From a virus, in the IMG/VR virus record IMGVR_UViG_3300017987_000071, positions 19,733 through 83,732 of that record: a stretch of 64,000 nt of DNA. One strand, given 5' to 3'. The notes beneath the pieces are model-generated. The model was not told where the DNA came from. It made no database searches and was given only the letters and a program-made list of their open reading frames with translations. Position numbers and translations under genes: made by a program. Each line of letters begins with the position of its first letter. Position 1 is the stretch's first letter. Shown in pieces: positions 9,270 to 51,805 of the stretch.

Positions 9270-10034
9270 CTACAGTTTGCGCTTAAGCACTATACCATCG
9301 ACCTCGATAGGGCGAGCCAACAAGGCACTATAAAGACGCTTTTCACCCCCCACGCCATGAGCAGCATTCAGGGTTAACGTAACCAAAATATCTACTTCAT
9401 GCATTTCTGTGCGAGTAGATGCCTTCTTCGTCCTGCGATCTCGCAAGGTTAGTATACATGGCATAGCCAAACGAACTTGTATACCCGACTCAGGATCAAC
9501 AACATTCTTAGGTACAACTTGCGTAACCCGTAGATTAGATTGCATATTCATCTCTACAAAAGAAAAGTTGCGTTCTACAGCAAAAGCCAAAGCCTTGGAA
9601 ATGCCAATCTTTATAACCTCCTTGCCAAACTTCCGCTCACTCCGTTGTATCGACTTTAAAACATTTAAAGCCAACAGCAAAATGCTAGGCACAACATTAG
9701 GAAAACGATAACCCGGATCATCCATCTTTTTGCTGGACCTTATAGCTTTTGCTTCAGCATCCTCTAGGGCCCGTTTCAGATCAGCAACTTCTTGCGCTAT
9801 TGCTTTATATCGCCCCTCTGCTTTACGCACATCCTGGTTTAACCTTCTCACCGCAGCAAGATCACTTCGCCATCGAGTACGCAAAGCCTCCCATTCGCCA
9901 GACCCAGACTTATACTCTGCCTCTAACGACCTAAGAGCATCCGATACTGGAATGCTTTTTTCTGGTTCTCTTAATTCTGGTGGGATAAGCGCTTCCTCCA
10001 AGCAAGTTATCCACGCTTTTAGATTCTCAGCCAT
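9270..10034 (-). CDS. Coiled-coil hypothetical protein, 254 aa
   Basis: ATG at 10034 with GGAG. Residues about 50-105 form a clear heptad-type coiled coil (RLNQDVRKAEGRYKAIAQEV and following). The C-terminal part is beta-rich, with VDILVTLTLNAAH. Downstream are two large proteins of similar helix-then-beta design (8107, 6834). No catalytic motif. Possibly one component of a three-protein complex. Confidence 0.65.
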   Translation of the reverse strand: MAENLKAWITCLEEALIPPELREPEKSIPVSDALRSLEAEYKSGSGEWEALRTRWRSDLAAVRRLNQDVRKAEGRYKAIAQEVADLKRALEDAEAKAIRSSKKMDDPGYRFPNVVPSILLLALNVLKSIQRSERKFGKEVIKIGISKALAFAVERNFSFVEMNMQSNLRVTQVVPKNVVDPESGIQVRLAMPCILTLRDRRTKKASTRTEMHEVDILVTLTLNAAHGVGGEKRLYSALLARPIEVDGIVLKRKL

Positions 10035-10902
10035 CTATGTCTCCAAAGACCTCCAGCACATCAGCAACTGTAGGATCAACCAAAGCATGCCCATTAGAGC
10101 ACCAAGGCTTATTCTTTATGGGATTCGAGATCCCTTCTCGAAATATGCCTATTACAGTCTTACCATACGCTGCCGCTACATGCATCAAGCCACTGTCATT
10201 CCCGATATAATAATCTGATCCCATTATAACCGAAAGCACAGTACCAAGTCCAGTCCCACATAAACTTTTGCAACCACTACGCTTCTGAATATCCTCTCCA
10301 TCTGCCTTCTGATCCTTATGATCCCCCACCAAAACCGGTATAGCTCCTCGCTCCTTAAGTTCTTGTATCAGTTGCACATACTTAAAATTGCCCCAATGCT
10401 TCTGCCTCCACCAAGGGTGATCCTTAAGGTAACCAATGCCAATAGCCACCTGCACCTTATTTTTATCAGATGTGAAGCGTGTAGGTGGCTGCGACTCGCA
10501 ATATAACTGCATGTCCTCATCAGTTATTTCTCTACTAATCAAACCTTCACTTAACCGAAGACATGCCGTAACCTCATGCTCCGAAAACCGAAACGGATAC
10601 TTCTTATCCTGCTTGTCCTTATCAGTTGGTATAACCCGTTGGTGACGAAATTGTCCCTTTGGGGGACGAATTCGCCCCGGCGGATGGCAATAAAGAACAT
10701 AATCGTAAACCATATCAAACAACAGGGGGTTGTCTTTAAGCAAGCAACCCGCCTTCGTTAGCATGTTAATAATAAGCCACCCCGCCACCCGATTGGAGCT
10801 AACTATGATGTCTACGTGGTGTTCACGCGACAAGACCCTGATCAACGGGGTGGTTAAAATCAAATTACCTATTCCATATTCCTGTACTACAAGAATCTTC
10901 AT
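10027..10902 (-). CDS. GT9 family glycosyltransferase (heptosyltransferase-like)
   Basis: 291 aa. The N-terminus MKILVVQEYGIGNLILTTPL is the GT9/ADP-heptose LPS heptosyltransferase signature (..GiGD.ll..P), here with Asn in place of the usual Asp after G. The C-terminal domain has YIGNDSGLMHVAAAYGKTVIG, the GT9 motif (G.DSG..HiA....P.v.lfG). The ATG at 10902 was preferred over the longer frame because AGGAG precedes it. One of three GT9 domains in the window, along with a GmhA-like isomerase and an HldE-C-like nucleotidyltransferase. The family moves heptose onto LPS core in bacteria; the acceptor here is unknown. Confidence 0.8.
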   Translation of the reverse strand: MKILVVQEYGIGNLILTTPLIRVLSREHHVDIIVSSNRVAGWLIINMLTKAGCLLKDNPLLFDMVYDYVLYCHPPGRIRPPKGQFRHQRVIPTDKDKQDKKYPFRFSEHEVTACLRLSEGLISREITDEDMQLYCESQPPTRFTSDKNKVQVAIGIGYLKDHPWWRQKHWGNFKYVQLIQELKERGAIPVLVGDHKDQKADGEDIQKRSGCKSLCGTGLGTVLSVIMGSDYYIGNDSGLMHVAAAYGKTVIGIFREGISNPIKNKPWCSNGHALVDPTVADVLEVFGDIDG

Positions 10903-11125
10903 TAGGGGTCTCCTGCATAAATGACCTGCATACCCGTATATCTTGGGAGTTGCCACACGCTGGGCAAATTATTGTCCCCTGGATCGGAGAATCCGCTGAG
11001 CGAAAACCTCTGTATGGTACCTGCACAATAACATTAAGATGCAACCTTTGCCCGCACGCACAGATCACATCGCCAGTGGTCTTCTGCTTTCCAAGTCTAC
11101 TCATCCTAACTACCTGCATACTCAT
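10865..11125 (-). CDS. Small zinc-ribbon protein, 86 aa
   Basis: ATG at 11125 with AGGAGG six bases before. Two cysteine pairs (CACG, then CPACG about 35 residues on) form a treble-clef or ribbon-type zinc site. Overlaps the start of the GT9 gene by 38 bases. No specific family. Confidence 0.65.
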   Translation of the reverse strand: MSMQVVRMSRLGKQKTTGDVICACGQRLHLNVIVQVPYRGFRSADSPIQGTIICPACGNSQDIRVCRSFMQETPNEDSCSTGIWNR

Positions 11126-11641: not shown

Positions 11642-12229
11642 TGCTATAATTCTCCTACGCAACTTCCTCAAATCCTGCTGCAATGCAACCTTACGCTCTT
11701 TGATGAAGCGAGTATCATAAAGCATATCCCGAAAGTCGCTCTCCACCTTCCAGAACATTTCGCCTTGAGCATACCCCTTAGCATCCAACCGCTCACCGGT
11801 ACGCTTAAAGCGGCCATGTAAACTAACCAACGCCCCACGCAACTTCAATGCTGACTCTATTACCTTAACAACATCAGCAGGCCTCGGAGGGGTTTTAGGT
11901 TTGCCGTTGGTGTAACCCAACGCACGAACTTGCTTAATCAAATCCGCTAACCACTCTTGCAACTTCTCAAGCCTTTCGCCGTAAGCATCAGCAAGTTCCT
12001 CAAACTCAGGGTCCTCAACGATCTCTCGCCGTTTGCGAAGTGCTTGGAGTTTACGACCCCAATTAGGTCGTCTTCGACGCCTGGCAGCATGCCAAGCAGC
12101 AGCCCCAAAAGCAGGCAAGAACTCCTCTAGGTTGGTAGCATTCACTAAACTCTCTGCTACCCCCACAGCAGATTTGCTAACCAGCAGTCCGCTGACCGCT
12201 TCTGCTATATTGTGTTCTGTTAGTTTCAT
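11639..12229 (-). CDS. Tagged basic helical protein, candidate internal head protein
   Basis: 196 aa. The N-terminal 30 residues (IAEAVSGLLVSKSAVGVAES, then LVNA) resemble the tag, with SK in place of the usual G-x. An Arg-rich stretch follows (ARRRRRPNWGRK), then DPEFEELADAYGERLEKL, which aligns by eye with NPEYEKVADKFWGQV in the protein at 32748 and KEYERLAKKAGREA at 20261. The three look like one divergent family of small, basic, all-helical proteins. Overlaps the neighbouring paralog start by four bases. Inferred to be packaged with DNA. Confidence 0.65.
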   Translation of the reverse strand: MKLTEHNIAEAVSGLLVSKSAVGVAESLVNATNLEEFLPAFGAAAWHAARRRRRPNWGRKLQALRKRREIVEDPEFEELADAYGERLEKLQEWLADLIKQVRALGYTNGKPKTPPRPADVVKVIESALKLRGALVSLHGRFKRTGERLDAKGYAQGEMFWKVESDFRDMLYDTRFIKERKVALQQDLRKLRRRIIA

Positions 12230-13137
12230 ACCATAGTCTCCACAAGGCTACCCGCCATCCGCTGGGGGCTAACACCATCCAAAATTAAGTCTATTGCATC
12301 TAGCACACTAGATTCAAGGTAGCGTTTTGCTGTCGCTTTTGACTGGACGCCCATCCGACTCCAGCGATCCAAGTCTGCTTTGCTAAGTCCAATTACCCCC
12401 CCAACACTCCAATTCCGATGCGCCGTATTTAATGCTACGTTGATAGCAAGTATCCGCTCAGGAATCTTACTCCCACTTTTGGATGCTTTATTAAGATAAT
12501 CCGCCGCTTTAGCAAAAAGCAAACTAAACCCATAAAGCTCCCGCCCTTCAGCACCCCCATAAAACCCCTGTAACGCTTTCTCTTGCCGTCTTTGAACTTT
12601 TTGCACTGCGCTTCCAGTATAAGGGAACTTCATTTGCTTAGCGCGCTCGTCTCTCTCAGTCCTTAACAAGCGATCCATACCACTCAAAAAGCGTTGTACA
12701 TGTGGGCCTGTAACTGTCCACCCATTATAATGGGCCCCACCAAAACTCTGCACAGATTTCAAAAAATCTAGTATAGGAAGCGTCACAAAATACAAAAGGC
12801 GATTCTTATAACTACCATACTCACCCTTTTGTGGAAAACACGGGTACGATAACCTTATAGTATCTGGAGCAAGAACCTCCAAACCAGTCAAATACAAAAA
12901 ATCCCAGTCATCAACCTTAGGAGACCCCAAATCTGGCCAGCCACCACGCCAAACACCGCCTAGCACTGTCGGCCCTAACCATCGAATAACTCGCTGCGTC
13001 AACCGATCAAGCGACCGCTTCAACTGCTCCCAAAAAACGTTGTCTTGTACCCACCCTTCAGTTTCATACTCGTATCGCAACTTGCTATACCAAGGCTCCA
13101 GTACATATATTGCTTCGATATCCCGCTTTAAACTCAT
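12226..13137 (-). CDS. C-terminally tagged paralog family protein (member A)
   Basis: 303 aa, ATG at 13137. Conserved blocks shared with 14485, 19060, 35859 and the pseudogene: N-terminal RDIEAIYVLEPWYSKLRYE, then GWVQDNVFWEQL; a central KFPYTGSAV; ILAINVALNTAH; RWSRMGVQSKATAKRYLES; and the terminal tag IDLILDGVSPQRMAGSLV. Between these blocks the sequence is variable. DNA identity to neighbours is visible in the C-terminal part (about 12310-12370 against 11200-11260 and 14560-14620), so the copies at 11, 12 and 14 kb arose recently. No known domain recognised. I infer a virion-internal protein family. Confidence 0.75.
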   Translation of the reverse strand: MSLKRDIEAIYVLEPWYSKLRYEYETEGWVQDNVFWEQLKRSLDRLTQRVIRWLGPTVLGGVWRGGWPDLGSPKVDDWDFLYLTGLEVLAPDTIRLSYPCFPQKGEYGSYKNRLLYFVTLPILDFLKSVQSFGGAHYNGWTVTGPHVQRFLSGMDRLLRTERDERAKQMKFPYTGSAVQKVQRRQEKALQGFYGGAEGRELYGFSLLFAKAADYLNKASKSGSKIPERILAINVALNTAHRNWSVGGVIGLSKADLDRWSRMGVQSKATAKRYLESSVLDAIDLILDGVSPQRMAGSLVETMV

Positions 13138-14484: not shown

Positions 14485-15384
14485 CTACACCAGCAGACCG
14501 CACACCGCGGTCCGCAAACTTTGTCCTTCTAAAAGTTGGTCTATCGCCCCACGAACACTCAATGACTCTAAGTAGCGTTTTGCCGTTGCTTTTGACTGGA
14601 CGCCCATCTTGCTCCAACGGCCAAGAATATCCTTATCTATATTCCATAATAAATCTGCTACGGAAAGAGTTTCATCCGTATGTACTGTATTCAAAGCTAC
14701 ATTAACTGCTAAAATACGACTTGGGATACGATCTCGATAACTTGCTTTCAACCTATCCGCAGCAACAAGCAACCGTACACCCGCATCCAGCAAATACTTC
14801 GGCATCGAAATACCTTTATACCACCGAACCTGACTAGATGCACTAAACTTACAACGATCTTGCACACTTACTAAACCACGCCTAATTATAGCAGTAAATT
14901 CCGCTAAAAACTTCGCACCAAGATACCAAACCAACTTTCCGTCTCTACGTTGTATAACATCTGGCTTCAATCGCTTAAACAATGCCACAACAGGATACAA
15001 AAATAACGGTGACTGCAAACGTTCTACGCGATCCCAGTTATCAATAACCTTTCTATAAAAAAGCGACACGGGTTGCTCACCCCAACCATATACATCAGGA
15101 TCAAAAAATACCCGTTTACCCTTCCAAATCAAATCCAACCCACCCAATAAATTCAGTGTATAAGCATCTAAATCAAAATCCTCGACCAACGCACCTATAG
15201 CATACGTCGCTAAACTCTCCGCTAAGGGTGGAATAACCCTCTTCGTTAATCGCTCCAGCGAATGCTTTAATTGCTCCCAGAAAACATTATCCTGCACCCA
15301 ACCCTCATGCTTCAGTTCATAACGCAATTTCGAGTACCACGGCTCCAACACGTATATCGCTTCAATATCCCGTTTTAAGCTCAT
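14485..15384 (-). CDS. C-terminally tagged paralog family protein (member B)
   Basis: 299 aa, ATG at 15384 with AGGAG. N-terminal block nearly identical to member A (RDIEAIYVLEPWYSKLRYE, GWVQDNVFWEQL). The central KFSASSQVRWYKG replaces KFPYTGSAV. RILAVNVALNTVH and RWSKMGVQSKATAKRYLES follow. The end is AIDQLLEGQSLRTAVCGLLV, with the tag stopping exactly at LV. The middle is unlike member A, so the ends are under stronger constraint than the core. Function unknown; see member A. Confidence 0.75.
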   Translation of the reverse strand: MSLKRDIEAIYVLEPWYSKLRYELKHEGWVQDNVFWEQLKHSLERLTKRVIPPLAESLATYAIGALVEDFDLDAYTLNLLGGLDLIWKGKRVFFDPDVYGWGEQPVSLFYRKVIDNWDRVERLQSPLFLYPVVALFKRLKPDVIQRRDGKLVWYLGAKFLAEFTAIIRRGLVSVQDRCKFSASSQVRWYKGISMPKYLLDAGVRLLVAADRLKASYRDRIPSRILAVNVALNTVHTDETLSVADLLWNIDKDILGRWSKMGVQSKATAKRYLESLSVRGAIDQLLEGQSLRTAVCGLLV

Positions 15385-19059: not shown

Positions 19060-19995
19060 TTATACAATCTGGCATGCAACCACACTAGGCAGCACGCCCT
19101 CCACTATCATATCCACTGCCAGCCCTACGCTTTCTAAGAAGCGTTTTGCTGTCGCTTTAGGCAATACGCCCATGCTCGACAAGCGATTCAACAAACCATA
19201 AGACAACCCAATCTCATCTGCTACTGTAGTCTCCACAGCATAACCTCCATGCACAGTATTAACTGCCACATGAAAAGCTATTATACGCTGAGGGATGCTT
19301 TTGCCATACGCACGACTAAGCATATCTATAGCTTTAGCATAACGCAAATCACCAGCATTAACTTCCCCCGAACCTCGGCCTGTAGTATATTTCCTAATAG
19401 CTGCTTCAGCACTAAATGAGTAGGGGAACTGATGCAACTTGTTATTAGCAATCTCCGCTTTCTGCAAATAGCTTCTAAGCTCAGCATACAATCGCTTAGA
19501 AACATCCTTTGGCACATGATAAAAGCCATCGTCTCCCAACACCGCTGTATGCTTCATCTCCAAAAAGATGCGGCCTAACGGAATCCGCACGCCAAAAATA
19601 CCAAAATACCAATCATCATACAGAGCTTCTTCCCAAAATGCTGCACGACATACACGTTCATAATCCCAACCCTTAACCCCAAACACAAACTCGTCTCGAT
19701 CCCAATTGACCCCCCAATAATAAGTCTTAAGAAAAGCATGTACATTCACCCCCCAATGGTTGCGAGGCTCTACCCCATCGAGGTAAAAAGCATGGTAAGC
19801 CATATAGAGAGCCATCGTAGGAGCAATACGATCAAGCAACCTATCCAACGAGCGATTCAGTTGCTCCCAAAACACATTATCACTAACCCACCCCTCTCTT
19901 TCGTATTCGTACCGCAACCTGCTATAATGAGGTTCCAAAACATAAACTGCCTCCACATCCCGAGATATCTCTCTCCCACGCTTGCTTCGTTGCAT
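19060..19995 (-). CDS. C-terminally tagged paralog family protein (member C)
   Basis: 311 aa, ATG at 19995 with GGGGG six bases before. Blocks: SRDVEAVYVLEPHYSRLRYE, GWVSDNVFWEQLNRSLDRLL, the central QFPYSFSAEAAI, RIIAFHVAVNTVH, RLSSMGVLPKATAKRFLES, and the end AVDMIVEGVLPSVVACQIV. More diverged than members A and B but with the same layout and length. The protein again ends immediately after the tag's two hydrophobic residues. Confidence 0.75.
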   Translation of the reverse strand: MQRSKRGREISRDVEAVYVLEPHYSRLRYEYEREGWVSDNVFWEQLNRSLDRLLDRIAPTMALYMAYHAFYLDGVEPRNHWGVNVHAFLKTYYWGVNWDRDEFVFGVKGWDYERVCRAAFWEEALYDDWYFGIFGVRIPLGRIFLEMKHTAVLGDDGFYHVPKDVSKRLYAELRSYLQKAEIANNKLHQFPYSFSAEAAIRKYTTGRGSGEVNAGDLRYAKAIDMLSRAYGKSIPQRIIAFHVAVNTVHGGYAVETTVADEIGLSYGLLNRLSSMGVLPKATAKRFLESVGLAVDMIVEGVLPSVVACQIV

Positions 19996-19997
19996 AC

Positions 19998-20261
19998 TCA
20001 ACCCCCTATTATCATTGAGCAAGGCAACCGCCTAAACACGCGGATGACCTTGCATCTTGGGCAAACAAGAAATCCTACCTCTGGCGGGTTTGGATGTGCT
20101 ATTTGATAGCCTGCCACCAGCGTCTCATATTCTTCAATCTTCTGGCAGCAACTACAACGGTAGAGTGCTGGCACACGGGGCAGCATAACTATCCGTAAAG
20201 CATCACCCGGTTCACGATTACCGGTATCTTGTTCACGAAACCCGCCCCTTTGTTCACACAT
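19998..20261 (-). CDS. Small zinc-ribbon protein, 87 aa
   Basis: ATG at 20261 overlaps the upstream stop as TGATG. Cysteine pairs CSCC and CPRC, about 35 residues apart, form a probable zinc ribbon. The first 20 residues are polar. No family recognised. First of many short Cys-rich proteins between 20 and 26 kb. Confidence 0.65.
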   Translation of the reverse strand: MCEQRGGFREQDTGNREPGDALRIVMLPRVPALYRCSCCQKIEEYETLVAGYQIAHPNPPEVGFLVCPRCKVIRVFRRLPCSMIIGG

Positions 20262-28978: not shown

Positions 28979-29788
28979 TTAGTGCCCAAAAGCACCCATA
29001 CGCTTAACACCAGTAAACTCAAGTTGAGGGTCTTGAGCATACCCATTGTACTTCACAGAATCCCTTACTCGCTTGAACAAAGTAGCACGCTCAACGTTTG
29101 GCGCTTTACGAATATGCTTACACATATAGTGGGTTAGCACCCCTTGGTACTTACCACCAATGAAAGCGTCATATGATACTTGCTTATCCCTACATCCCGC
29201 CCATAATATATGAGATTCCGACGTTCTAAACGCATGGCGAACAGTCTTTAGTTCTACATTCTCCCCCTCCCAACGGCAAGCAATATCCAGAGGTGGAGGA
29301 GCAAACTTTGCAATGGAAGCCTCTGGGTCCTTGAATAATGAAAAACTACGGATGCCGGTACCCGAATGGCAACAGTCTAACACGACTTCAAGCAATGCGC
29401 TTTCTGGAACGCGACTAAAGATATCCCGTAAAACATCATCTGTAATCATATGATGTTCCCAATCAACATCATACGGGCACAGTATCTCATCCAGCGAATC
29501 AGTGAGTTCATCTCCATCGCGATCCCGTACCTGTGACCCATGCCCTGAAAAATGGAACAGTATATAATCGCCGGACTTAGCACCGGACACCAACCAATGT
29601 AAGCGTTCAAGAATCCCCACGCCAGTTGCCCTAGAATCTGCTAAAACCCTAACATTCTTGTTATCAAACCCACCAACATGTGCTTGTAGCACTTGACGCA
29701 TATTTGCTACATCATTCAAGCATCCACGTAAATCTGGCACATAAGAATGCTTATAGTTATTTATACCAACCAGCAACGCTTTGTTCAT
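28979..29788 (-). CDS. Metacaspase/caspase-like cysteine protease (peptidase C14)
   Basis: 269 aa, ATG at 29788 with AAGGAG five bases before (two GTG codons just upstream are in frame). ALLVGINNYKHSYVPDLRGC is the first strand and loop of the caspase fold. FHFSGHGSQV gives the catalytic His83, and VVLDCCHSGTG the catalytic Cys140 in the D-x-C-H-S-G motif. DGDELTDSLDEILCPYD is the metacaspase acidic loop. No prodomain, so the protein is essentially a bare catalytic domain of the type that cleaves after Arg/Lys. Caspase-like proteases serve in bacterial defence (for example with gasdermins). In a phage it could counter host defence, block rival phages or process a phage protein. Confidence 0.92.
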   Translation of the reverse strand: MNKALLVGINNYKHSYVPDLRGCLNDVANMRQVLQAHVGGFDNKNVRVLADSRATGVGILERLHWLVSGAKSGDYILFHFSGHGSQVRDRDGDELTDSLDEILCPYDVDWEHHMITDDVLRDIFSRVPESALLEVVLDCCHSGTGIRSFSLFKDPEASIAKFAPPPLDIACRWEGENVELKTVRHAFRTSESHILWAGCRDKQVSYDAFIGGKYQGVLTHYMCKHIRKAPNVERATLFKRVRDSVKYNGYAQDPQLEFTGVKRMGAFGH

Positions 29789-30218
29789 CACCACTCCTTA
29801 TTCTACGCATACCTTTAACAAAGGGTAGCAAATCCAAAAAATATAAACCTAACTCACCAACAGCGTTACAACGGTACACAACCGCTATAACGACATCCCT
29901 ATCTTCCTCAAATGCTTGTTTGCTTAGCACTCTGCCTAAATCGGATAATCTCACTGACAACCCACACTCATATGCAAACCCGCCCTCTACAACAGACCAC
30001 AAAGCCACAAACGGAGTTCTACCCCGTAGAGACTTAATCGAAACATTGCCGCCAATAACTCTAAACGATTTGTATGTTGGCAATACAAAAGGCAACACAA
30101 CAAAATATCTACTGTCCTCAAACAAGAAACCAAATGTATAACCCACTCCTCGCATTGCCCGCTTTCGATAATCACTATGGGGGGTAAAATAATCGGTAGA
30201 CAGCAGCCATTTACCCAC
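29757..30218 (-). CDS. Hypothetical protein adjacent to metacaspase, 153 aa
   Basis: GTG start at 30218, overlapping the upstream small gene by eight bases; its 3' end overlaps the metacaspase start. Beta-rich sequence with aromatic strands (GVGYTFGFLFEDSRYFVVLP, TPFVALWSVVEGGFAYEC) and a helical end. No family recognised. The tight coupling with the protease makes it a candidate regulator, substrate or partner. Confidence 0.6.
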   Translation of the reverse strand: MGKWLLSTDYFTPHSDYRKRAMRGVGYTFGFLFEDSRYFVVLPFVLPTYKSFRVIGGNVSIKSLRGRTPFVALWSVVEGGFAYECGLSVRLSDLGRVLSKQAFEEDRDVVIAVVYRCNAVGELGLYFLDLLPFVKGMRRIRSGDEQSVAGWYK

Positions 30219-30387
30219 TTGTCACCCTCAGTTCACACTGATGTGCTGTGCAAGAAACCTGGCAAGCATTAGTGCAACCATCACTAATAAGGGCCCAGTG
30301 TTCTTCGATACTCACCTTACCCATCTTACCAGTTTGCTCCAACTTACGCACAGCATCACGCAACTTCCTTTGTTCTTCCTTGCTCAC
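30211..30387 (-). CDS. Small Cys-containing protein, 58 aa
   Basis: GTG at 30387 with GGGAG upstream, overlapping the sulfotransferase stop. A basic helical start (MSKEEQRKLRDAVRKLEQTG) is followed by DGCTNACQVSCTAHQCE, a four-cysteine cluster. It fills a gap between two well-supported genes with proper overlaps. Unknown function; third member of the metacaspase group by position. Confidence 0.55.
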   Translation of the reverse strand: MSKEEQRKLRDAVRKLEQTGKMGKVSIEEHWALISDGCTNACQVSCTAHQCELRVTSG

Positions 30388-30920
30388 GTTTTAATCTCCC
30401 TTGGGTCAATACACGGAAAGGGTTCATCAAGCAAATGCTTAACATCCTTACCTAAGAATAAACCAAGAGCGGACCACAAACTTGCATCCGCCCCCTCACA
30501 AATATTAAGTATAAGGACATCCTGTCCCCTACCAGCAAAATGCTGAATGATATCTCGTTCCAAAACCCGCCGTACTTTAGCAAATACAGCAGGATTATAA
30601 TCTGGTGGGGTACCATAAACCGCACAGCAGTACTCATAAGACCGACGGCCGAAAACTGGTGGTGCTACTTCCCATTGCTTCCTGCAACTCGCCATCCAAG
30701 TTACTTCATCCCTTACTGTATAAATGAATTTCGACCCAGGATACTTAGCATCTAGCATCTTATAGTTTGCCACTACAGACAAATCCGCCCCAGCATCCAT
30801 ATCACCATCGAAAACCCGTAAGTCTTTTGGGAAGTGGATAGCCTTGTACCCCAAACGACGCAAGGCAGCAACCAGCGAATGGGTTCCTGTGCGAGATAAA
30901 CCAATACCGAATATCTTCAT
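30384..30920 (-). CDS. Sulfotransferase-like P-loop protein
   Basis: 178 aa. MKIFGIGLSRTGTHSLVAAL contains the G-x-x-R-T-G-T-x-S-L phosphosulfate-binding loop of the sulfotransferase-like family. FIYTVRDEVTWMASCRKQW corresponds to the R-D...S segment. Shorter than typical enzymes (about 220-270 aa). Sits immediately after the GmhA-like isomerase in transcription order, which suggests a shared sugar product. Confidence 0.78.
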   Translation of the reverse strand: MKIFGIGLSRTGTHSLVAALRRLGYKAIHFPKDLRVFDGDMDAGADLSVVANYKMLDAKYPGSKFIYTVRDEVTWMASCRKQWEVAPPVFGRRSYEYCCAVYGTPPDYNPAVFAKVRRVLERDIIQHFAGRGQDVLILNICEGADASLWSALGLFLGKDVKHLLDEPFPCIDPREIKT

Positions 30921-30923
30921 CCC

Positions 30924-31508
30924 TTAACCCCAGTGAACCAGATAATCTTCCACCTGGCGACAAATACTATGTAGTACAAGCAGAGTTGCCTCCTGTATAC
31001 GAGGAGTTTCTGTGCTTGGAATCACTATTGAATGATCAATAAAGAATGTATCACCTAGCACCTTAGACTGCCCCACAATAATGCCTGTAGCAATATCGTT
31101 TCTATGTGCCCAAGCCAACGCAGAAGTAACATTAAGCGACTCACCTGAAGTCGTCAAACCCACAACTAAATCACCTTCACTTGCCTGCGCCTGCAACTGC
31201 CGGTCAAACAACTCATCCCAGTCAAAGTCATTGCCCAACGCTGTAAGCAGCCCCGTATTGCTATTCAAGCAAATCACAGGATAACCCTTTCGATACCGCA
31301 TAAACTTGCCCACAAGTTCAGTTTGAAAGTGCTCTGCTTGGGATGCTGAACCACCATTCCCAAAAATGTAAACCTTCCCCTTACGCTGAAAGGTTTTGCA
31401 AACAGCCATCGCCAAACTCTTAACAGAGGCAAGGAAACAACCACTGCCCATCTTTGCCAGCAGATCGCCAAAAGCAGTAAAGTCTGCGAAGATGCTAGTT
31501 TTCTTCAT
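30924..31508 (-). CDS. gmhA: Sedoheptulose-7-phosphate isomerase-like SIS protein (GmhA-like)
   Basis: 194 aa, ATG at 31508 with AAGGAG eight bases before. VYIFGNGGSASQAEHFQTEL carries the GNGGSA phosphosugar loop (50-55) and the H60 and E64 metal/catalytic positions of GmhA. LVVGLTTSGESLNV is the second SIS phosphate loop, and IQEATLLVLHSICRQVE the C-terminal helix. GmhA makes D-glycero-manno-heptose 7-phosphate, the first step to NDP-heptose. An HldE-C-like nucleotidyltransferase is encoded 0.8 kb upstream; kinase, phosphatase and epimerase steps are not seen in the window. Confidence 0.88.
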   Translation of the reverse strand: MKKTSIFADFTAFGDLLAKMGSGCFLASVKSLAMAVCKTFQRKGKVYIFGNGGSASQAEHFQTELVGKFMRYRKGYPVICLNSNTGLLTALGNDFDWDELFDRQLQAQASEGDLVVGLTTSGESLNVTSALAWAHRNDIATGIIVGQSKVLGDTFFIDHSIVIPSTETPRIQEATLLVLHSICRQVEDYLVHWG

Positions 31509-31791
31509 TAGCATTCTCCTTATCCCAAGCATTAAATGCCTTCTCGAATTCGCTTATGCCTTGCTCGTTGTTTAACCAAACATCAAACTCTCTATCGTGA
31601 TAGGTTTTTTGTGACTCCACTCCAACATCCACATCAATGAATAGCGGGGAAACATCATCTAACGTGTACGTAAATCCCGCCAACTTTCGTCTTCGCTTCC
31701 TCCACCACCTAGCAACAGCATTCACAAACAGCACAACCAAATAAGCAGCAATGCCACCCAGCACAAAACAAATAAACACCAAGTCCCACAT
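31495..31791 (-). CDS. Single-pass membrane protein, 98 aa
   Basis: ATG at 31791, one base overlap with the upstream stop. MWDLVFICFVLGGIAAYLVV is a membrane helix, followed by a basic patch (RWWRKRRRKL), so the C-terminal acidic domain is probably cytoplasmic. No family recognised. Overlaps the isomerase start by 14 bases. Confidence 0.6.
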   Translation of the reverse strand: MWDLVFICFVLGGIAAYLVVLFVNAVARWWRKRRRKLAGFTYTLDDVSPLFIDVDVGVESQKTYHDREFDVWLNNEQGISEFEKAFNAWDKENANEEN

Positions 31792-32096: not shown

Positions 32097-32293
32097 AACG
32101 AGGACTCCTTCGTCTGTATAGGATCAGGTAGAAACAACGGCACGTAAACACTCTTCATGTTCCTAAATGCTTCAAGAGCGTTATGAACCTTAAACACATA
32201 ACATGTAGTACAAAACGTTATACCAGGCGAAGACTTACTATCCCACTCTGGATGTGTACAGGTCTTCTGGCGCTCCATAAACTCATCCGTCAT
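32093..32293 (-). CDS. Small Cys-containing protein, 66 aa
   Basis: ATG at 32293 with AAAGGGG. CTHPEWDSKSSPGITFCTTC gives a C-x(16)-C-x-x-C arrangement with a nearby His, a possible zinc site. Overlaps the nucleotidyltransferase stop. Unknown function. Confidence 0.55.
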   Translation of the reverse strand: MTDEFMERQKTCTHPEWDSKSSPGITFCTTCYVFKVHNALEAFRNMKSVYVPLFLPDPIQTKESSL

Positions 32294-32751
32294 AACCCCT
32301 TTATCCTTTCTATAAGTGCCGTAGTTGAATAACCCTCCTGCCTCTTATAAAGCAACACACGTCCGCCACACTTCTCAACAAGCGCAGCGCCTACCACTGA
32401 ACCATCCCACTCTGATCCCTTAATAAGCACATCAGGGCGAATCGCTTGAATCAACACCAGTGGAGTATCGTCTCTAAAAATGGTAACATAATCAACCATC
32501 GACAATGCATCCAGCACTACCGCACGATCCCTGGCAGACACAATAGGGCGCTTAGGTCCCTTCACTTCACTTACAGAAGCATCAGAATTGAGACCCACAA
32601 CCAATATATCCGCCTGAGTCTTACAATAAGTTAAGAAGCGAACATGCCCAGGATGCAAAAGATCAAAGCATCCATTAGTAAAACAAACAGTTTTCTTCAA
32701 ACAACGTGCAGCACTAAGATCATCTAACAAATCAGGCAACGACTTTATCAC
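32290..32751 (-). CDS. Cytidylyltransferase-family nucleotidyltransferase (HldE C-terminal/RfaE2-like)
   Basis: 153 aa. VCFTNGCFDLLHPGHVRFL includes the HxGH catalytic motif (33-36). LVVGLNSDASVSEVKGPKRP, RAVVLDALSMVDYV and FRDDTPLVLIQAIRPDVLIK match the stand-alone D-beta-D-heptose-1-phosphate adenylyltransferase form, ending in GYSTTALIERI (the S-T-T motif). The reaction joins heptose-1-phosphate to ATP or another NTP to give NDP-heptose. Together with the GmhA-like protein and GT9 enzymes it argues for phage-directed heptose use. Confidence 0.9.
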   Translation of the reverse strand: MIKSLPDLLDDLSAARCLKKTVCFTNGCFDLLHPGHVRFLTYCKTQADILVVGLNSDASVSEVKGPKRPIVSARDRAVVLDALSMVDYVTIFRDDTPLVLIQAIRPDVLIKGSEWDGSVVGAALVEKCGGRVLLYKRQEGYSTTALIERIKGL

Positions 32752-33313: not shown

Positions 33314-34018
33314 CTATAAGGAATGTACTTTCGTTTTTGCACCCCACTCAGGCGCGCAGCGAATCAACGGAGACTGCAACTTACCTGGCAGTGCATACCC
33401 TATCGCTGGCACCCTATGAGATAATGCCACATAAAACAATAACCCTTCTGGGCCAACAAAAGTGTCCGCTTCAGCAACAACCTTCATTGCTTCCAAAAGA
33501 GAGGTGCGTCCCACCAAATTTATCGTATTGCTAAAAACCCATGATCTGTAGCTCTCATCAGTCCCAACCAACACAGGAACAATCTTATAACCCACACGCA
33601 AGGATTCCTGTATAATCACCGTACACTGATGCAACACTCGTTGCTTCCCCAAAGCCTTAGCATTGCTGCCTCTAGTTCCACTGTTAACCTGCACCACACT
33701 GTAATGATCAGGAAAACCAAACTTAACTACATTAACTTTGCTAAAATCAACTTGAGGATAGGGTTCAAGGGGCCACGCCTCGCTATGGTCCTTATAGGTT
33801 ACATTGATTTCCTTCAACGGAAAGCGCTCAAACACTTCCCTTGTTACAAATTCCACCTTAGATACCTTGGGGTTTAACCCATAGATATCCTGTATAGCAC
33901 AGCGATCATGAAATTTCGCATAGTGCATAATACGCAAGGGAGAGTTTGCGTGATACAACTTGCACAGAGCAACCAAGTATGTATCTCCAAACCCCCCCTT
34001 AACTTTAAACTCCATCAT
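33314..34018 (-). CDS. GT9-like glycosyltransferase, shortened
   Basis: 234 aa, below the usual 300-350. KGGFGDTYLVALCKLY is the N-terminal G-x-G-D motif and EADTFVGPEGLLFYVALSHRVPAIG the C-terminal G-P-x-(S/G)-G-x-x-h-x-x-A motif with Glu replacing Asp/Ser. Part of the N-terminal domain seems to be missing. Adjacent to the sliding clamp (11-base overlap) and upstream of the tag protein and the heptose nucleotidyltransferase. Probably a heptosyltransferase relative; activity is uncertain. Confidence 0.7.
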   Translation of the reverse strand: MMEFKVKGGFGDTYLVALCKLYHANSPLRIMHYAKFHDRCAIQDIYGLNPKVSKVEFVTREVFERFPLKEINVTYKDHSEAWPLEPYPQVDFSKVNVVKFGFPDHYSVVQVNSGTRGSNAKALGKQRVLHQCTVIIQESLRVGYKIVPVLVGTDESYRSWVFSNTINLVGRTSLLEAMKVVAEADTFVGPEGLLFYVALSHRVPAIGYALPGKLQSPLIRCAPEWGAKTKVHSL

Positions 34019-35141
34019 CCGTCTTTATCGGCAATACGATATAACGAAAATCGCTGCCGATCTCCATTAAACTTGGACCATTAGCATCAGTGGTCCAACG
34101 CCAAACGAATTTATCTTCAGCAAATGCCAACGCTGGTAGTAGCAAATCAGGATCAAATTTAACAGGCAAGGGAACCATATCCCCCATTGCTGCCTGCATC
34201 TCATACTCCGCTTTTCCCCTAGAATTGGTACTGCTAAGTTGCAACTTTCCTGCTGGCGGGCTACTGAATGTAAACTCAGCAAATCTATCCATCGCTTTCC
34301 CCGACAATGCAGCAATCTGCTTCAGGGGAGATATAAGATCATTAGCATCAATCCTTGCTTCTGGCCCCCAAACCGAATTCAAAAGCTTCTCGTATGGAGG
34401 AAATTGAGAAGTCACTGTCCCAACCGCCAACGTAATATGCTCAGTGTTAAAAACAAAATGGTTGCCTACTACAGCAACCTCAACCGCTTCATCCTCCTCG
34501 ATGTTAGCAATCTTCACCAACTTTGCTACCTGCCTCAAACCTGACCGAGGAACGACCGCTTCCTGTTTCTTCTTTGGGGTTGGTGTTTGTTTGGTACAAA
34601 TCGCCAAGCGCTTACCGTCAGTAGCAATAAACGAAACAGAATTACTGCGTGCTTTGACATACACATTGTCTAAATCGTACTTACTTTCATCTGAAGTACC
34701 AGCAAAAATGCTCTTTTCAATAAGCTCCGACAGGTCCTCCCGCGAGATGCTAAAGCAACCCTTGGGTTGAAACTCTGGCAAATCAGGAAATACATCAGGA
34801 CTCTGGCCATAAACGACCACTCGCCCCCGTTTCCCAAAGCGAAATTGAGCATTTGTCTCTTGGGAAGTTATCTCAATCTCCTGGCCCTTCCTCGCATTAA
34901 CCACCAAATCATAAGTCAACGCTACAGGAAGCACAAGACTCCCACCACTTACTACATCCACGCCACTGCTCGGCGCGGTATACATAACAGACGTTTCCAG
35001 ATCACACGCCTGCACATAAAACGAATCCATATCAGCGGACAAATTGACTATATCCGCTGATATACCTTCTTTCTTAGGGGCAACCGCCCTAGCAAGGGTC
35101 AACCCTGCTAAAAGCGATTCCCGACTAATCGTAACTTTCAA
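34005..35141 (-). CDS. dnaN: DNA polymerase III beta subunit-like sliding clamp
   Basis: 378 aa, the normal length for bacterial beta clamps. TTG start at 35141 (GGGGGAG precedes), overlapping the upstream TGA. The three-domain pattern is visible: LLAGLTLARAVAPKK in domain I, FSISREDLSELIEKSIFAGT opening domain II with NSVSFIATDGKRLAI (the F-x-A-T-D-G-x-R-L-A signature), and domain III ending FRYIVLPIK (the Y-h-h-x-P-h tail). Clamps tether the replicative polymerase. T4-like phages usually encode a gp45 clamp of the PCNA type, so a bacterial-type clamp is notable here. Confidence 0.92.
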   Translation of the reverse strand: MKVTISRESLLAGLTLARAVAPKKEGISADIVNLSADMDSFYVQACDLETSVMYTAPSSGVDVVSGGSLVLPVALTYDLVVNARKGQEIEITSQETNAQFRFGKRGRVVVYGQSPDVFPDLPEFQPKGCFSISREDLSELIEKSIFAGTSDESKYDLDNVYVKARSNSVSFIATDGKRLAICTKQTPTPKKKQEAVVPRSGLRQVAKLVKIANIEEDEAVEVAVVGNHFVFNTEHITLAVGTVTSQFPPYEKLLNSVWGPEARIDANDLISPLKQIAALSGKAMDRFAEFTFSSPPAGKLQLSSTNSRGKAEYEMQAAMGDMVPLPVKFDPDLLLPALAFAEDKFVWRWTTDANGPSLMEIGSDFRYIVLPIKTDDGV

Positions 35142-35858: not shown

Positions 35859-36812
35859 CTATCCTACCAATAACACTACGGTACGAGATAAACTCATACC
35901 TTCCAACAAACAATTCACAGCATCCCACACCGAGATGCTTTCCAGATATCGTCTAGCGATCTCCTCTGCTGTATCTTTAACAGCAAGCAACCGCTTTAAG
36001 TATCCAGGTGTAATACCCGACAACGCTACACCACGATACCCAACCCCCATAATAGTCTCTAAAGCACCCTTTATTGCATAGAAACGATCATAAGGAGGTT
36101 TATTATATTCTTTATTCAAATCGTCCACCTTCGCAGCGAGAAGCGCATTCACGATGGTCAATTTACTCTTAGTGGACGCCAACGGATGATGGTACTTAAT
36201 ATCGTCAACCATCCTACTGGACCCACCATACGGGAACTCAAGTCTGCTACGAGCAAAAGCAAACTGCTCCTGAGTTAACTTCCATAAATACGGATAGAAC
36301 TTGCTACGAGCATACTTGGGGTTAAGCTTCCAACGCCCATCATCCTTAACAAACTCTAAAGCCTCAACGACCTTCCAAATGTCCAAGCGAGTAGACAACA
36401 CAGTACGAGTCTGAGGTAGATTTGCTTTAAGAATCGCACGCACATCATCAGCATCTCTAGCATCCTTGCTATCCAACGCTGACGCAAAACCTACATAAGC
36501 AGAAGCATCCGCATTGCGCACCCCTTTAGGAGCACGTAAACCAAAATATGGCAGCAAGAAAGTAATATGCTGCCACGGCTTCCACTGTGACGTAGCACTA
36601 TCCCATATAAGCTTCAGCATACCACGCCCCAAGATATCAGATACTCTCTTAGTCACTTTGTCAAATGATGTTTCAACACGCCTTAAAAACGACGCATCCC
36701 AAACCCAACCGCCACGCTCTTCGGAAGACTTTTGCTTCATGTACCAAGGATACAAGGCAAACAGAGCCTCTATATCCTTCCGAGGTAATACAATACGAGA
36801 TTCTAATAGCAT
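35859..36812 (-). CDS. C-terminally tagged paralog family protein (member D, divergent)
   Basis: 317 aa, ATG at 36812 with GGAGG. Recognisable blocks: RKDIEALFALYPWYMKQ, GGWVWDASFLRRVE, a central EFPYGGSSRMVDDI, RFYAIKGALETIM, LLAVKDTAEEIARRYLES, and the end WDAVNCLLEGMSLSRTVVLLVG. It is the most distant member, about 16 kb from member C. This shows that the family framework is older than the recent 11-15 kb duplications. Confidence 0.7.
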   Translation of the reverse strand: MLLESRIVLPRKDIEALFALYPWYMKQKSSEERGGWVWDASFLRRVETSFDKVTKRVSDILGRGMLKLIWDSATSQWKPWQHITFLLPYFGLRAPKGVRNADASAYVGFASALDSKDARDADDVRAILKANLPQTRTVLSTRLDIWKVVEALEFVKDDGRWKLNPKYARSKFYPYLWKLTQEQFAFARSRLEFPYGGSSRMVDDIKYHHPLASTKSKLTIVNALLAAKVDDLNKEYNKPPYDRFYAIKGALETIMGVGYRGVALSGITPGYLKRLLAVKDTAEEIARRYLESISVWDAVNCLLEGMSLSRTVVLLVG

Positions 36813-49708: not shown

Positions 49709-51805
49709 TTATCCCTTCTTGTAACTATACCGTTCTTCGGTATCCTTTCGACAAAGCAAACACGAAAAGTCATTCGAGTGCTTGAGTTTAACATACTCGA
49801 TAACCACCAGGCCACAATCCTTTGCCAGCTGTTTCATCCCTGCCTCACCCACTATACACAAATGCTCACCAGCAAACAGTGTATTCAAATGTCCCCACTT
49901 CCCAGGGGACCGCAAATCGCAAGCATCTGCATCAGGACTTACAACAGATATTGCCCCCACCGGAGACAATCCATCCAGCATACGCTTCAGCACCTTCTTT
50001 GGGTCAGCAAAATGCTCCAGAGTCTGATGGCAAATAATCAGATCATATTTCTTCTCGCCAAAATCATATTGTTCAAAATCTGCAACCGCAACTTCCTGTT
50101 TCAAATTCCAATGATGTTTTGCTTCCCTAATAGCATCCTTGCTAACATCTATGCCAGTTACATCCCACCCAAGACGCTTCATCTCAGCTAACACAGTCCC
50201 AATATTGCAACCTATCTCAAAAACATTCCCATTATACCAAAAATAGGGTGCAAAACGCTGACTAAGGCTACGTGCAGAACGCTTACAAGCTTCCACATAT
50301 GCCTCATTTTTATAGATATTGAGATACTTTGTCCGACGACCATACAAGCGATGTTGTTCCTTCATATTCGGTGTTGGATCACAAACTATAGTCCCACACT
50401 TCTCACAACGATAGTAACCAAAACGCCCTTTACGACACAAAAACGAATTAAGAGAACAATAGCAAACAGGACATGTAGAAATCGAATTCTGTGCATCTGG
50501 TTTAACAAAACTAGACCGAAGAGGCAAATCACAACCCCTCTCATAAGTCTCCTGTAGAATAGCAACACTAGCACTAAACACTTGACCCGCAGTAATTTCC
50601 TCCATACACAAAGGATCATCCGTACCACGCACCCGTTTACTATTAGGACACCCAGTATGATGCAAAAAACAAGGAGCGCAATAATAATCCCTCTGGAGCC
50701 AATATGCCTTCGGATATGTTCCTAAACGAAGAGATGCATCAAAACTAGCAAAAATTCCCAAACAGGGGGTATCCACTGAAGCAGCTATATGCAAAAGACC
50801 ACTATCAGGTCCTATAACCAACTCTGCTTGTTTGCACAAACAAGCAATCTCCAAAAGGCCCAACCTGTTTATAAAATATTTTATATTGTCCGGCTCAGCA
50901 ATGTTTACATACTGTGCTGTACTCTTAGTGCGTCGGCGACTGATTTTCTTCTTAGTAAAGCGTATTGGGGCATTGCAAAAAGCACACGCAGACTCAAACG
51001 GATCTTTCGGCAACTTACCCAACATAATCACAGTATCCCACTTGCGGCACGCCTCACACTGAAACCACCGCCGCTTCCGAACATCATCATTCAACCCTAC
51101 TAAGCAAATATACTTGTCTGGATACTTCCGAGTCAACAGCATTGCCAACTCGCGAGTATACCTCAGAGGCCAATTCCGTACAGCAGTAGACGTATCTGTC
51201 TGAATAACAATTAAAGCATCTTCCGAAGCAATACCCCAATCCGCTTCCAATCGCTTTCTAAACATATCTTCTACAACGACAGGGATATGTAAATCAGGAA
51301 CCTTATCCTCAATTGGCACGCCTAACCATTCTTCATAAAGTTCATATGTGTTAACAATCTCCGACAAGGCATTGCCAGCAATAATACCAGAGAAATCATA
51401 GGAAGCATCAAACTGATCAACATAATGACCTAATTGATGCTTTGAGCAATTCATAAAATGATCAATATACGGATTATGCTTAAGAAGCTCAAACCGATGA
51501 ATATCAGTTGCCAAATGCAACTCCACCTTTGGATGCTTCTCCTTATATGCTTTTATTGCAGCAGTTGCCATAAGCACATCACCTATACCGCCCCAACGAA
51601 TACATAAAATCCGCTCTGGATCACCAGTATCTAATTCCTTAAACCAATCTGGACTAACATCCTTATAACCTAACCCAGTAAAGAAGCGATACCAATATTG
51701 CTCAGTTACTAAAGCAACCCCACCAGCAAACTTATGCCCAAAAAGGTCACCGGTAACATTTTCTCCAACCAACGGTGGAGCTTTAACAAGCCAAACTCGT
51801 CCCAC
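49709..51805 (-). CDS. Fusion: GT9 glycosyltransferase - zinc ribbon - SAM methyltransferase
   Basis: 698 aa, GTG start at 51805 with GGAGGTGAC. Residues 60-420 are a GT9 domain: ILCIRWGGIGDVLMATAAIK and VIGPDSGLLHIAASVDTPCL, with an internal four-Cys insertion (CEACRKWDTV, CAFC). Residues about 440-480 are a zinc ribbon (CPVCYCS; YYRCEKCGTIVCDPTPN). The C-terminal 220 residues are a class I methyltransferase (VFEIGCNIGTVLAEMKRLGW; DLIICHQTLEHFADPKKVLK). The combination suggests one enzyme that adds a sugar and then methylates it. Placed directly after the fibre cluster, so a virion substrate is possible. Confidence 0.88.
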   Translation of the reverse strand: MGRVWLVKAPPLVGENVTGDLFGHKFAGGVALVTEQYWYRFFTGLGYKDVSPDWFKELDTGDPERILCIRWGGIGDVLMATAAIKAYKEKHPKVELHLATDIHRFELLKHNPYIDHFMNCSKHQLGHYVDQFDASYDFSGIIAGNALSEIVNTYELYEEWLGVPIEDKVPDLHIPVVVEDMFRKRLEADWGIASEDALIVIQTDTSTAVRNWPLRYTRELAMLLTRKYPDKYICLVGLNDDVRKRRWFQCEACRKWDTVIMLGKLPKDPFESACAFCNAPIRFTKKKISRRRTKSTAQYVNIAEPDNIKYFINRLGLLEIACLCKQAELVIGPDSGLLHIAASVDTPCLGIFASFDASLRLGTYPKAYWLQRDYYCAPCFLHHTGCPNSKRVRGTDDPLCMEEITAGQVFSASVAILQETYERGCDLPLRSSFVKPDAQNSISTCPVCYCSLNSFLCRKGRFGYYRCEKCGTIVCDPTPNMKEQHRLYGRRTKYLNIYKNEAYVEACKRSARSLSQRFAPYFWYNGNVFEIGCNIGTVLAEMKRLGWDVTGIDVSKDAIREAKHHWNLKQEVAVADFEQYDFGEKKYDLIICHQTLEHFADPKKVLKRMLDGLSPVGAISVVSPDADACDLRSPGKWGHLNTLFAGEHLCIVGEAGMKQLAKDCGLVVIEYVKLKHSNDFSCLLCRKDTEERYSYKKG

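Follow-up and report, generated by a model that had tools for sequence, protein, structure and literature searches.

Why a bacterial virus should carry a gene for a caspase-type protease, and whether two short genes overlapping it in series take part in its function, is the question raised by a locus in a 64,000-nucleotide stretch of viral DNA (hereafter the window, to which all coordinates given without a locus name refer). For metacaspases of cells and of giant viruses, functions in cell death and stress are under discussion. The source record is an 83,732-bp virus fragment which carries genes for a T4-type portal, a major head protein, a head maturation protease, a tail sheath, a tape measure and a baseplate wedge, and as judged by its gene content it is a large contractile-tailed phage (myovirus). 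No close relatives of this phage were found, a portal scan of viral contigs included.

Identity of the protease

The longest form of the open reading frame extends from a GTG codon over positions 28979-29794 of the minus strand and encodes 271 amino acids. Translation is, however, likely to start at the ATG at 29788, upstream of which the motif AAGGAG is located, yielding a product of 269 amino acids (28979..29788, minus strand) whose numbering matches the catalytic residues His83 and Cys140 as given in the earlier note. Pfam assigned the 271-residue form to Peptidase_C14 (PF00656, caspase domain) with an E-value of 6.5e-30, and the family profile aligned to type I metacaspases across both the p20 and the p10 region, reaching position 256 (E 6e-61), whereby p10 follows C-terminally to p20 and includes the conserved Asp207. 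An AlphaFold2 model built with 30 relatives (pLDDT 83.8, pTM 0.85) revealed metacaspases as its top matches among solved structures, with a Z-score of 26.8 to Arabidopsis metacaspase 4 (MC4), and the metacaspases of yeast, Candida and Trypanosoma were likewise found among the structural matches. As both Pfam and the model place the beginning of the caspase fold at residue 2, the earlier statement that a prodomain is absent holds, and the same is true for the claim of a phage-encoded metacaspase with an intact catalytic dyad, for which Pfam, the alignment, the model and the phage structural genes of the record agree. The codon usage of the metacaspase gene and of the three open reading frames upstream of it (153, 58 and 178 amino acids) corresponds to that of the genome itself, in the expected frame.

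Since the protease is encoded by a T4-like myovirus, it may be thought of as a virion or capsid maturation enzyme, as had been considered in the earlier note. This function is filled by a separate gene, namely that of the phrog_207 head maturation protease (E 2e-29), which adjoins the gene of the major head protein, whereas the metacaspase gene is located in an accessory region approximately 28 kb off the portal gene and is missing from most phages which share the head module. A role in maturation is hence most improbable.

Active site, calcium site and linker

An alignment of 50 phage with 77 cellular members showed no variation at His83, Cys140, Ser81 and Asp138, and at Cys23 and Asp26 nothing but a single gap. 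In the Trypanosoma brucei enzyme TbMCA2, the S1 pocket residues are Cys92, Asp95, Ser156 and Asp211 (PMC4357240), to which Cys23, Asp26, Ser81 and Asp138 correspond by motif spacing. Since these S1 residues are conserved, the phage enzyme is predicted to cut after Arg or Lys. At the Ca2+ site, Asp100, Asp117 and Asp118 are kept while the fourth position (Cys+7) is occupied by Arg147, thus the site falls short of the four-Asp criterion. Arg is found at the Cys+7 position of most relatives, too, and Asp is found there mainly in a membrane-anchored phage clade. Due to the replacement of the fourth Asp, activation of the enzyme may require little or no Ca2+, but three of the four Asp residues are retained. 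Despite this three-Asp site, the dyad, the S1 pocket and the p10 region identify the protein as a metacaspase (C14B), an assignment that we consider to be nearly certain.

The linker between p20 and p10 is variable except for the motif [KR]-[FY]-x-x-P-P around Lys161 (codon at 29303..29305, minus strand, counting from the ATG at 29788), with a basic residue being present in 124 of the 126 aligned relatives. The conservation of this motif makes Lys161 a likely candidate for the site of self-cleavage, the alternative being a structural role of the motif.

The two overlapping genes

The metacaspase gene had been proposed to be coupled to two genes, the products of which would serve as its inhibitor, activator or substrate. 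The first of these encodes an orphan protein of 153 amino acids (29757..30218, minus strand) and overlaps the metacaspase start by 38 bp when counted from the GTG and by 32 bp from the ATG; the second (30211..30387, minus strand) encodes an orphan protein of 58 amino acids with four Cys residues (CTNACQVSCTAHQC) and overlaps the first by 8 bp. Both overlaps are thus real, the genes are co-directional and both possess a genuine coding signal, which is what speaks for a three-gene module, whereby membership of either gene in such a system is only putative. The overlapping run continues with a gene for a sulfotransferase-like protein of 178 amino acids (30384..30920, minus strand; PF17784, E 1.5e-18), which shares 4 bp with the 58-residue gene and is given here as context. 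Overlaps are, however, the norm in this genome: of the adjacent gene calls in the window, approximately 60% overlap and 82% are no more than 10 bp apart, and as a consequence an overlap holds little information on function.

Furthermore, neither neighbour was found to have a relative in the approximately 65 metacaspase-bearing viral contigs or at the 80 cellular loci, nor across 200 retrieved loci, nor in the complete records of 25 viruses that carry a metacaspase (a scan that ran without a positive control). Scans of viral contigs with either single protein gave no match, and in phage records nothing beyond one match at chance level was obtained. The single-sequence fold of the 153-residue protein was uninformative (pLDDT 36). 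The nearest phage relatives, L007 and L008, carry another gene upstream of the metacaspase, and hhalign gave a probability of 0.2% when comparing it with the 153-residue protein. The search for the three-gene arrangement in other phages hence ended without a find, whereby both neighbours are orphans and the collections contain no close relative of this phage. The proposed coupling is not supported, as no relative of either neighbour was found at the metacaspase loci searched and overlap is usual here; as far as the available genomes reach, this is the lack of conservation which the earlier note had named as refuting it. A module of three genes is therefore very unlikely; the two genes look like neighbours through tight packing rather than obligate partners, and the metacaspase very probably is a single-gene module.

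L007 and L008 possess a common block of their own, consisting of a heptose kinase gene, a gene for 105 amino acids which is unrelated to the 153-residue gene, the metacaspase and a small gene. A heptose kinase gene is also located near the metacaspase of L023, and the window itself contains heptose-type sugar genes (30924-31532, 32290-32751, 10027-10956, 33314-34018 and 49709-51805) for an SIS isomerase, a heptose-phosphate adenylyltransferase and family 9 glycosyltransferases. A functional link between these genes and the protease was considered and rejected, as three of the four cases represent one metacaspase subclade and as large phages frequently carry sugar genes. Two further observations on the window concern a set of four paralogous open reading frames (12226-13137, 14485-15384, 19060-20022 and 35859-36812) with an N-terminus like (S/R)xDIEAIYVLEPWYSKLRYE and a gene for a sliding clamp of the DNA polymerase III beta type (34005-35141; PF02767, E 5e-14), here in a T4-like phage.

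Metacaspases in other phages

Relatives of the metacaspase were identified in approximately 65 viral contigs (counted from contig names) by alignment-based scans, through which alone the family was reached, as a scan with the single protein gave no match. A portal match was obtained in 11 of the 29 records checked and a terminase-family match in 17, with the portal being the cleaner phage marker since the terminase family also matches bacterial control genomes. A weak match (E 8e-9) to phrog_18397, a family of unknown function, indicates that distant phage members are already present in databases. In the records of L009 and L011 (G003 and G004, respectively), in-frame stops occur within the terminase-family matches, three TAG codons in G004 and mixed ones in G003, which suggests stop recoding or an intron.

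The genes next to the phage metacaspases are mixed and comprise glycosyltransferases, HNH endonucleases as well as recombination and structural genes, and no neighbour common to the phage metacaspases in general was found. As far as the sequences tell, phage metacaspases thus appear as a broad and recurrent set in many unrelated large phages, without a fixed partner gene. Two members, L034 (3621-5615) and L035 (3450-5594), are interrupted by inteins of 373 and 381 amino acids, which are 49% identical, contain an HNH domain and were recognised by the Pfam family Intein_splicing (E 1e-16 and 7e-21). Both are inserted at one and the same point, one residue past the catalytic His-Gly (SGHG|SQV). 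No description of inteins in metacaspases was found in the open-access literature.

An exception with respect to the neighbourhood is a clade of phage metacaspases with a C-terminal transmembrane helix (L127, L131-L135, L138, L141, L146, L147 and L020), in which genes for Hsp20 and ClpS follow the metacaspase and a ClpX gene is located upstream. This locus possibly represents a phage proteolysis island. In this clade, a small gene preceding the metacaspase had been taken for YkuD-like owing to its C-terminal SxGCIN motif, an assignment that Pfam and a PDB profile search did not back. For the phage described here, no Clp genes were found among the Pfam families listed for the record, which is a fragment.

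Some variants of the family bear on a role as timed killing or lysis factor, according to which the protease would help to dismantle the host envelope or set off a late death pathway. Seven cellular relatives in the clade of the window copy (L047, L049, L050, L052, L064, L074 and L106) are fused to a C-terminal peptidoglycan-binding domain, the metacaspase of L038 (2584-3444) is followed at a distance of 2 bp by a gene encoding PG_binding_1 and an SLT transglycosylase, and 19 phage members possess a predicted transmembrane segment outside the protease domain and are thus predicted to be membrane-anchored. The metacaspase in question has neither a membrane anchor nor the wall-binding domain of those cellular members, however, and none of the genes beside it was recognised as a lysis gene, which renders this role unlikely. 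Apart from this, four of the seven cellular metacaspases with a peptidoglycan-binding domain sit downstream of a P-loop ATPase gene, and at L056 (4952-7384) a Gallionellaceae metacaspase is located 91 bp upstream of phage-type tail sheath and tube-like genes, perhaps a contractile injection system.

Origin and selection

Single-domain metacaspases from bacterial groups such as Desulfobacterota, Nitrosomonadales and Nitrospirota (L038-L072) are up to 54% identical to the phage copy, of equal length, share the linker motif and belong to one clade with it. In a tree of 127 sequences, the phage copy, L007 and L008 group with 24 cellular sequences (SH-aLRT 96). Changes between phages and cells amount to at least three when derived from supported branches and to nine by parsimony, whereby the tree was obtained by a quick method, contains several long branches and does not prove the direction of each transfer. 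The phage gene hence shares its lineage with bacterial metacaspases, from one of which it was probably captured. For phage pairs with measurable dS, dN/dS values of 0.12-0.24 were obtained, these pairs being other phage lineages and not that of the phage described here; for L007 and L008 the value is 0.18 at a dS of 1.5, which is near saturation. These ratios point to purifying selection on the metacaspase in the phage pairs tested.

The nesting of the phage copy among host metacaspases is also what would be expected if the enzyme served counter-defence by cleaving or competing with a host defence protein, for instance by a pre-emptive cut that would render a gasdermin-like effector harmless or by dominant poisoning of a host metacaspase pathway. 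The patchy distribution with its repeated acquisition resembles that of accessory arms-race genes, and the PADLOC model for caspases matches the protein in a generic manner (E 1.9e-19). The caspase-like proteases of bacterial gasdermin systems have the caspase fold in common with the phage enzyme, and an S1 pocket of the Arg/Lys type is expected for them, but at the phage locus neither a gasdermin-like partner nor an accessory sensor domain was found by Pfam and PADLOC, the genes flanking the metacaspase gave no gasdermin or PADLOC matches and no defence or anti-defence gene adjoins it. The closest cellular relatives reside in mixed neighbourhoods where PADLOC matches are scattered and directed to broad families, and a simple decoy is disfavoured by the intact catalytic residues. 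Counter-defence, which is a specific form of host-directed proteolysis, is thus regarded as doubtful when taken as the specific role. A function as superinfection barrier, likewise put forward in the earlier note, would be a conjecture.

Proposed role of the enzyme

Considering the captured-type phylogeny, the retained catalysis, the lack of a fixed partner, the accessory location and the Clp-linked cousins, the metacaspase is best explained as a host-directed auxiliary protease, a role to which we assign a probability of roughly one half. According to this model, a single gene of a large myovirus would provide an enzyme that matures by its own cut after Lys161 and subsequently performs limited, Arg/Lys-specific cleavage of selected host proteins in the infected cell, with host takeover as outcome, possibly including the cleavage of defence proteins. 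The metacaspases linked to Clp and Hsp20 in another phage clade give, by analogy, a hint towards such a role in proteolysis, albeit from a distant clade.

Comparison with known metacaspases

With type I metacaspases (C14B) such as yeast Yca1/Mca1, Candida glabrata MCA1 and Trypanosoma brucei MCA2, the phage enzyme shares fold, dyad and S1 pocket, whereas it lacks the N-terminal Pro-rich/zinc-finger prodomain of the canonical eukaryotic form, has Arg147 at the Ca2+ site in place of a fourth Asp and is encoded by a phage. Virus-encoded metacaspases also occur in medusavirus, Heterosigma akashiwo virus and other giant viruses and gave the best viral structural matches, but these are nucleocytoplasmic viruses of eukaryotes and not phages. 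For the giant-virus enzymes, a function in the regulation of host cell death was suggested (PMC6450098). Within the open-access literature, subscription papers and preprints lying outside this scope, no description of phage metacaspases was found; the phage set therefore is apparently, and provisionally, new to the literature, the enzyme family itself being known.

As a phage family with invariant catalytic residues, it offers a direct test of what bacterial viruses use a caspase-type protease for, and soluble, membrane-anchored and intein-interrupted forms are at hand as natural variants for comparison. Tentatively, and with more against than for it, large phages may be imagined to have recruited metacaspases of their hosts on repeated occasions, as a general protease for host takeover or counter-defence, which would be autoprocessing, Arg/Lys-specific and, in one membrane-anchored lineage, linked with ClpX, ClpS and Hsp20, so that its cuts could feed fragments to Clp degradation. 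If true, this would amount to a phage-controlled proteolysis pathway.
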